Positions 1,693-4,390 of a stretch of 64,000 nucleotides of DNA are shown piece after piece. The position numbers and the translations under genes are program-made. Under the pieces are notes generated by a model. That model saw only the letters and a program-made list of their open reading frames with translations. It did not search any database and was not told where the DNA came from. Each line of letters opens with the position of its first letter. The stretch's first letter is position 1. Origin of the DNA: Tausonia pullulans (lineage: Eukaryota > Basidiomycota > Tremellomycetes > Cystofilobasidiales > Mrakiaceae); the NCBI GenBank assembly GCA_951802195.1, contig OX637637.1, positions 372,001-436,000 of the forward strand, in the 5' to 3' direction.

Positions 1693-4390
1693 ATGCCCGC
1701 CATGGACGACTCCAAGTTTGCCCAGCTCCCCGAGATCCCCGCCGATGCGTCAGTGCCTCGCCCAGCCCCTCCCCTCGTCCGCCCTCGTCAACCCCCCCCC
1801 CCCCCCCCCCCTCCGGCTCGTTTCGCCGAGACTGGTCGTGAACGTGTTATCCCCCTCCCCTCGACGTGGCCCGCTACACCGTTCGAGGCGTGCTGGACAA
1901 GGGTCTCCAGGGGGCCCTGATGGCGTCTTTTGACGGCCGCCGCTGGGTCACTGGCGATCTCGTCCATTCGTTCCCTCCTCTGTCCTTTCCGACGAACCGG
2001 GGCCAGACAGACACCTGCCGCCGGCAACAGACGAGTGCGCTTGCTTGTCGCGCGTCGCCTTTCTCTCTTGTCCTCTCCCCGCCTGCATGGAGGGAGGGAT
2101 TTAGGCGTGGAGAGCATGCGGTCCTGGTCGATGATGCCCTGCGGCAGTGACTCGACCCGTCGTGCCTGTCTCGGCTTTCTAACCCCCGCCCGTCCTCCCT
2201 GACTGACGTTACTCCGCTGACTCGACCCTTTCGCCGCGTGCGCTCTTCCAGCATCTTCGCCCTTACGGCGGCCTACAAGGCTGACCCGTCACCGGAAAAG
2301 ATCAACCTAGGTGTCGGGGCGTACCGGACGGACGAGGGCAAGCCCTGGATCCTCCCTGTCGTGAAGAAGGTGCGTCCGGTGTCCTGGGACCAAACGCACT
2401 TGCCGTCTGCTGCCGAGGGTTAGACGTCGTCGCCTCCTGGTGACCGCGGGCAAGCCGGTCCTCTACGGACTTTCTAGACGAGTAGCGAGAGGTGATCCGC
2501 CCTCGCTTCAGTATCGCGGTCGGCGGGTCGGTGGAGACTGGCACCCGACAGTAATCGAGTCGAGTGAGCCGGCCTGGACTCTTTGTCGGCGTCCTGCTCC
2601 GACGCTCGTCTTCGTCCCGTTGACCTGTTTTGACGTGGGACTTGTACGAACCTCTGGCTCTATGGCCTCTTACGAGCGACCTCCCATCAGAAGAGCCTCT
2701 TTAGAAGGGGTCGGACATGGCCAAGCATGCTGCGTGGTCATATCCAGGCCGCTCTCTTGGCGCATGAATCCTGTCTCGCCCCTTTTTGCCCAATCCCAAA
2801 CTGACTCTACGTGTTCGCTATCCTCGCGAAGGCATCTGCTATCATCGAGGCCGACGAGTCCCTCGACCACGAGTACCTCCCCATTGCTGGTCTCCCCGAG
2901 TTCACCTCTGCCGCCGCCCGCCTCATCCTCGGCGACGCTGCCGCGCTGAAGGAAAACCGCGTCAACTCGTTCGTTCCCCCGAGCTAGCTAGCTGACTGGC
3001 TTGCTAGCTGGGCTGACAGACTAGCTGCTCACAGGACGCAGACCATCTCGGGCACCGGCGCAAACCACCTTGGCGCGCTCTTCCTCGCCAAGTTCTACCC
3101 CTTTCCGAACGGCCAGCCCAAGATCTACGTCTCCAACCCGACGTGGGGTCAGTCCTTGTCCGCTGGTCCGATTCCGCTGTCAGGTCAGCTGACACGGATG
3201 CCACAGCCAACCACCAGGCGATCTTCAAGAACGTGGGGATCGAGCCCGTCGATTACCCGTACTACGACCCGAAGACGGTTGGCCTCGACTTTGAGGGCTT
3301 CAAGTCCAGCCTCGAGAAAGCTGAGGACGGCAGCGCGTTCCTCATCCACGGCTGCGCGCACAACGTGAGTCGGACCCGGCTAGCCTGTCTCAGTATCGGC
3401 CAACGCTGCTGACCTTCCCTTCTGTGTCTTCCACAGCCCACTGTACGCTGTTCATCTTTCTTTATTATTGTATTCGAGTCATTCGAGGCTCGCTCACTTG
3501 ACTGCTTTTCCTATCTCTCAGGGTGTCGACCCGACCAAGGAGCAGTGGGCTCAGCTCATGGATGTGATTCTCGCCAAGAAGCACTTTGCCTTCCTCGACT
3601 GCGCCTACCAAGGCTTCGCGTCGGGCGACCTCGACGACGATGCCTGGGCTGTTCGTGAGATGGAGCGCAAGGGGATCCCGATGCTCGTCTGCCAGGTGCG
3701 CCTTGACTTCCGCCCAGACTAGAGCCATAACGACTGATTGCCAAGTGGCGGCGCTCTTCTCCAGTCGTTCGCCAAGGTGAGCAAGACATTCTTCGATCCA
3801 CGAAAGATGCAAGATGAACAGTATCTAACGCTTTCTCCCCTCAGAACGCCGGTCTCTACTCCGCCCGTGTCGGCGCCCTTCACTTTGTCTCCCCGACGCC
3901 CGAGGAGAACTCGGCCGTCAAGTCTCAGCTGGCCTTCCTTCAGCGGTCCGAGATCTCCTCCCCTCCGGCCTGGGGCGCGCGCGTCATGGCGCTCATCCTC
4001 AACGACGCCAAGCTCTTTGAGGAGTGGAAGGTCAACGTTGCGACGATGGCCCACCGGATCATTGAGATGCGCGAGGCGCTCAAGGCGGAGCTCGTTCAGC
4101 TTGGCACCCCTGGAAACTGGGACCACATCACGAAGCAGATCGGCATGTTCTCGTTCACGGGTCTCAACCCGAGCCAGACGAAGGTTCTCAAGGAGCAGTA
4201 CCACGTGTACCTGACCTGTGCGTGCACGGTCTGATGACACGCGTCTTTCTTTCCTTTTTCTTTTTCTTTCTTTCTTCGCTGACTGACTTGGGACATACAT
4301 ACAGCCAACGGCCGTATCTCGATGGCTGGCCTCAACAAGTCCAACGTCATCCGGTTCGCCAAGGCCGTCGACGCTGTCGTCCGGGGTTAG
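1693..4390 (+). CDS. Aspartate aminotransferase, cytosolic type
   Basis: PLP-dependent enzyme exchanging amino groups between aspartate and 2-oxoglutarate. Ten exons join cleanly: 1693-1748, 2252-2369, 2832-2968, 3035-3147, 3207-3364, 3437-3442, 3522-3695, 3765-3776, 3845-4217, 4305-4390. Family motifs are [13 protein letters not shown] near the N-terminus, [27 protein letters not shown], the PLP lysine motif SFAKN, and [10 protein letters not shown] at the C-terminus. No mitochondrial presequence is seen, which suggests the cytosolic isoform. Two exons are tiny: 6 bases coding Pro-Thr of HNPTGVDP, and 12 bases coding Ser-Phe-Ala-Lys with the catalytic lysine. Intron 1 is unusually long (503 bases) and holds a run of 20 C. 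An alternative start is the second ATG at 1702. Confidence 0.95.

Follow-up and report, generated by a model that had tools for sequence, protein, structure and literature searches.

Two very small in-frame exons predicted on conserved motifs of a cytosolic-type aspartate aminotransferase gene in Tausonia pullulans

Micro-exons of 5-6 nt in basidiomycete genes are already known (PMC9142197, PMC1184071), and the available portions of the papers cited here describe several systems with which the aspartate aminotransferase gene reported below can be compared. The bglA genes of basidiomycetous yeasts share with it a basidiomycete yeast setting, short introns and smallest exons of 5-6 nt (5 nt in Sirobasidium magnum, 6 nt in Rhodotorula minuta), and their authors regard several micro-exons as putatively common in basidiomycetous yeast genes (PMC9142197), although bglA belongs to another gene family. 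The P450ome of the basidiomycete Phanerochaete chrysosporium likewise has frequent small introns and a shortest exon of 6 bp, or two amino acids; it differs in consisting of P450 genes, for which its authors suggested a link with alternative splicing (PMC1184071). Fusarium CYP621A offers another ultra-small exon needed for a conserved motif, one that was manually annotated and for which transcriptomic support is reported, but the organism is an ascomycete, the exon is a single nucleotide and its omission changes the frame (PMC12940212). A study of plant micro-exons of 1-15 nt, which concerns green plants and an alga, found them often unannotated and their flanking introns removed consecutively (PMC8831610). 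Trichoderma virens Xlr2 also has a fungal micro-exon, in this case in a transcription factor gene and with glucose-dependent inclusion (PMC11121469), and lipS of the ascomycete Dactylellina haptotyla has very small exons of 3 nt that are mentioned in passing in a paper whose subject is stwintrons (PMC5639578). Micro-exons as such are absent from the available portions of PMC3990503 and PMC4014442 (mapper settings only in both), and from those of PMC4393869 and PMC9210288. Literature searches found no relevant paper on aspartate aminotransferase together with microexons, and none on intron positions in aspartate aminotransferase genes, which does not in itself show absence from print.

The gene considered here comes from the psychrotolerant yeast Tausonia pullulans (Cystofilobasidiales; assembly gfTauPull1.1), for which public poly(A) RNA-seq reads from the same isolate exist (ERR11242559; PMC11803393), and was analysed within a window of 64,000 nt, the whole stretch 372001-436000 of contig/chromosome 18. 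Members of the Cystofilobasidiales carry a mean of 7.65 introns per gene, more than any other fungi compared in the same study (PMC5103461). A cytosolic-type aspartate aminotransferase gene (cAAT) is predicted at 1693..4390 on the forward strand of this window, with 10 coding exons encoding 410 aa, a start codon at 1693 or 1702 and the exon 3 donor GTTCGT at 2969; the splice model yields a single open frame of 410 codons. The predicted protein matches PF00155 (Aminotran_1_2; E 1.1e-80, 272 bits), is 71% identical to the aspartate aminotransferase (AAT) of Mrakia frigida and 72% identical to that of Phaffia rhodozyma, and can be aligned over nearly its full length with the solved yeast and animal enzymes. 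AAT structures are its best structural relatives, with the yeast structure 1yaa at E 4.3e-135. On the Aminotran_1_2 domain and the HNPTG and SF[AS]K motifs of its predicted sequence, the product is assigned to the class I aspartate aminotransferases. Its residue numbering presumably matches that of the pig enzyme, and K258 is the residue that we take to be the lysine that binds PLP. The first two introns of the gene, at 1749-2251 and 2370-2831, are 503 and 462 nt long, compared with a median of 76 nt in the intron survey described below.

Introns 5 to 8, all phase 0 and all GT-AG, are predicted to isolate two very small exons on the forward strand. Exon 5 (3207..3364) ends in ...CACAAC, encoding H193-N194, and is followed by intron 5 (3365..3436), which is 72 nt long, runs from GTGAGT to CACAG and carries a branch-like CTGAC 24 nt from its 3' end. 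Exon 6 (3437..3442) is a micro-exon of 6 nt, CCCACT, encoding only P195-T196 of HNPTG, and intron 6 (3443..3521; 79 nt, GTACGC...CTCAG, branch-like CTCAC 25 nt from the end) separates it from exon 7 (3522..3695), which encodes GVDP...VCQ. Intron 7 (3696..3764; 69 nt, GTGCGC...TCCAG, branch-like CTGAT 27 nt from the end) leads to exon 8 (3765..3776), a micro-exon of 12 nt, TCGTTCGCCAAG, encoding S255-F256-A257-K258 and hence including the PLP lysine, and intron 8 (3777..3844; 68 nt, GTGAGC...CTCAG, branch-like CTAAC 16 nt from the end) leads to exon 9 (3845..4217), placed by the splice model and by spliced alignment. The junctions of exon 6 read ...CACAAC/gtgagt...cacag/CCCACT/gtacgc...tctcag/GGTGTC, and those of exon 8 read ...TGCCAG/gtgcgc...tccag/TCGTTCGCCAAG/gtgagc...cctcag/AACGCC. 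Both exons are no longer than 15 nt, have canonical splice sites on both sides and lie in an open spliced frame, and are classed on those grounds as internal coding micro-exons. We also considered a stwintron, an arrangement in which a splice signal of the outer intron is split by an inner one (PMC5639578), and rejected it, as donor and acceptor are complete in all four introns and a coding exon separates the members of each pair.

The first-pass annotation had placed exons of these lengths, encoding these residues, at these bases, and had held that both joins recreate conserved motifs exactly; splice model and homology support it on each of these points. The homologue set comprised the best 120 of 7,991 proteins with E <= 1e-30 (7,993 candidates were scored), and within it HNPTG[VI]DP and CQSF[AS]KNAG, the motifs that the predicted joins restore, are kept in 120 of 120 proteins. 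The first reads HNPTGVDP in 117 and HNPTGIDP in 3, and the second CQSFAKNAG in 119 and CQSFSKNAG in 1, again among the best 120 of 7,991; because ranking by score favours complete proteins, annotated relatives that lack a motif may still occur beyond these 120. The arithmetic of skipping also stood, in that loss of exon 6 would remove 2 residues and loss of exon 8 would remove 4, the PLP lysine among them, both in frame, and loss of either micro-exon would be expected to kill the enzyme.

The placement of both exons was examined with a spliced aligner that was given homologous proteins only, either as a profile of the 120 homologues or as the single Phaffia protein, together with positions 1-6000 of the window and with exon limits unsupplied. 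Both the profile run and the Phaffia-protein run called the two micro-exons at exactly the bases given above; the profile run missed exon 1 and began exon 2 two bases early, and exons 6 and 8 were unaffected. When candidate exons were counted as stretches of 3-30 nt, divisible by three and bounded by AG and GT or GC, with at least about 35 nt required for an intron on either side, CCCACT was the sole candidate in its 157-nt interval, and from the five candidates in the exon 8 interval the protein singles out SFAK. Among 20,000 dinucleotide shuffles of each interval, a Pro-Thr exon bounded by AG and GT appeared 17 times and an SFAK exon not once. The aligner itself invented some micro-exon in 7 of 60 shuffled intervals for exon 6 and in 17 of 60 for exon 8.

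Pfam searches, run on one part-frame and on 23 of the 227 long reading frames in the window, named few genes. Reading frames with DUF3535 and SNF2 domains at 47867-52606 on the forward strand probably form one gene, which is presumably Mot1-like, and two reading frames with parts of the nuclear protein Es2 at 41854-43740 probably form another. A reading frame at 8242-9396 lies barely above the ATG14/VPS38 cut-off (33.4 against 33.2 bits), and a small intron-bearing reading frame at 5600-6043 appears by eye to be rich in GG and KGG; its unspliced pieces matched no Pfam family. Because Pfam named few window genes, conserved housekeeping genes were used to survey the genome for further micro-exons. 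Seven housekeeping proteins were searched for and all seven were matched. The queries were single yeast proteins, except for the AATs, a design that small exons in less conserved stretches would escape. Excluded from the survey were the upstream actin exons next to a masked region, of which one was an artefact of alignment, together with the final aligned exon of enolase and the final five aligned exons of an actin-related gene on C2; every excluded exon was longer than 15 nt. Terminal exons whose donors are poor were in some cases retained (pyruvate kinase, Hsp70 on C3), though not counted as internal.

Across 15 conserved loci, cAAT included, 5 of 111 internal exons were predicted to be 15 nt or shorter, and these fall in 4 loci. 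Besides exons 6 and 8 they are an 8-nt exon that completes GVGAYRD in a mitochondrial-type AAT (L009:2203-2210), a 6-nt exon, AGGACT, inside KDWRGG of GAPDH (L029, 2596-2601 of the reverse complement) and a 14-nt exon inside GIDLGTT of an Hsp70 (L045:963-976). The mitochondrial-type AAT, so called from its best relatives, is also predicted to have a 19-nt exon (L009:2600-2618). Its 8-nt exon was called in 4 of 6 runs, both misses coming with the Mrakia query. Shuffle controls, which covered the five micro-exons only, showed how readily the aligner can invent such exons, with false micro-exons in 42 of 60 shuffles for the 8-nt exon, 14 of 60 for the GAPDH 6-nt exon and 0 of 60 for the 14-nt exon; in no case did a shuffle reach the score of the real micro-exon (0 of 60 for each of the five). 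Excluding cAAT, 3 of 14 loci have a predicted exon of 15 nt or less. In plants, micro-exons of 1-15 nt occur in 0.6-2.6% of expressed genes per species, the highest value being 2.59% in Chlamydomonas (PMC8831610). At a rate of 2.6%, the highest in the plant table, the binomial chance of 3 of 14 is 0.005, a rough comparison that sets conserved genes and prediction against RNA evidence in small numbers.

The introns beside these exons look ordinary. Introns 5 to 8 are close in length to the survey median of 76 nt, and all four begin with GT, end with AG and contain a CTNAY motif 16-27 nt before the end. In the survey, the 10 introns that adjoin predicted exons no longer than 15 nt could not be told apart from 116 others by their donors (p = 0.55), their acceptors (p = 0.99) or their length (p = 0.31), and a CTNAY motif lies 8-60 nt from the end in 9 of the 10 and in 102 of the 116. 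Such a comparison is weakly powered, and a degree of circularity enters it because good splice sites are rewarded by the aligner with which the introns were called. The first-pass annotation had proposed that exons of this size need splicing enhancers or rules of intron definition. Since the flanking introns look ordinary, as intron definition predicts, a special enhancer need not be assumed, and intron definition survives as the simple account. Under this account each flanking intron of 68-79 nt would be recognised across the intron, and the introns would be removed in sequence because both splice sites of so small an exon could not be bound simultaneously. Productive mRNA would include both micro-exons, because loss of P195-T196 or of K258 should inactivate the protein. 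Retention of a single intron would place the first stop after residue 209 for intron 5 (in frame), 267 for intron 6 (frameshift), 262 for intron 7 (in frame) and 403 for intron 8 (frameshift). Taken from the genomic sequence, the reading that we hold with considerable confidence is that cAAT is a normal, working gene in which two pairs of close introns leave constitutive exons of 6 and 12 nt, spliced by intron definition. The position of the micro-exons on catalytic motifs is partly a matter of detection bias, because tiny exons are recognisable only where the protein is nearly invariant.

A regulated switch, in which exon 6 or exon 8 is skipped under some condition to give a stable inactive enzyme that perhaps poisons dimers, is the alternative that survives best, and we consider it improbable. 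Both exon lengths are divisible by three and the introns on either side are in phase 0, which would make skipping neutral for the frame, and Xlr2 of Trichoderma provides a precedent for regulated switching by a micro-exon (PMC11121469). Among 126 introns the donor of intron 6 (ACT/GTACGC) is also weak, at the 15th percentile, and that of intron 5 strong, at the 88th, so that exon 6 might at times be skipped or a neighbouring intron retained. Against this, the splice signals are otherwise ordinary, the genes with predicted micro-exons are housekeeping genes, and it is hard to see what use an inactive form of such an enzyme would have. Moreover, 2 of the 5 predicted micro-exons, at 8 and 14 nt, have lengths that three does not divide; skipping them would shift the frame, so frame-neutral skipping is no general design. 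The suggestion in the first-pass annotation that these exons could work as a silent control point is unlikely in our judgement.

A pair of tiny exons raises the matter of how they arose, and paralogues within the genome bear on it. The genome holds at least two further AAT genes besides cAAT, and three AAT genes could be aligned; class I/II aminotransferase loci L011-L014 gave no alignment with the AAT profile. The mitochondrial-type AAT (L009) has an intron at HN/PTG (CACAAC/CCCAC), at residue 194 and in phase 0, matching intron 5, and has no introns at 196, 254 or 258, and the third AAT (L010) is without all four of introns 5-8. Because the mitochondrial-type gene has the HN/PTG intron but not the other three, the 6-nt exon was probably born in two steps, by the gain of a second intron two codons downstream of an older HN/PTG intron. 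This direction of gain would be mistaken if parallel gain at the identical HN/PTG site, or loss, had occurred, either of which is possible.

It is also conceivable that introner-like elements were recently inserted here and left tiny exons between them, an explanation that we rate as very improbable. The genome is intron-rich, and the two introns are no more than 6 nt apart in one pair and 12 nt in the other, as such insertions might leave them, but introns 5 to 8 are not alike (local scores 11-15), and introns 5 and 6, the two that were searched, match only themselves in the genome in a DNA search that skips very common words. Introner insertions that are old and have diverged are possible. 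That the apparent micro-exons are remnants in a pseudogene or a mis-assembly is extremely improbable, since, although the presence of at least two other AAT genes means that a loss could be tolerated, the spliced frame is intact across 410 codons, the protein is 71-72% identical to the enzymes of relatives, and the assembly has a QV of 71.1 (PMC11803393).

A more interesting lead than the control point is the frequency of tiny exons in the T. pullulans genome, together with its low BUSCO score. The gfTauPull1.1 assembly combines a QV of 71.1 and a k-mer completeness of 100% with a BUSCO completeness of only 29.9% on the tremellomycetes set (PMC11803393), and two Mrakia genomes reach 91.4% and 92.1% on the basidiomycota set (PMC12749792), a contrast that is only suggestive because the sets differ. 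The low value may in part reflect a very high intron density and exons of minute size. We tentatively entertain, as a proposal somewhat less likely than its opposite, that T. pullulans has an exceptional abundance of ultra-small constitutive exons, which arise where new introns adjoin old ones and contribute to the 29.9% BUSCO completeness. For annotation, the consequence is that gene finders may miss such exons, and a gene model that lacks them would show an enzyme without catalytic residues, which might then be taken for inactive. If the survey holds genome-wide, T. pullulans would be a good model for intron definition at exons too small to accommodate both splice sites, and for the birth of micro-exons by intron gain.
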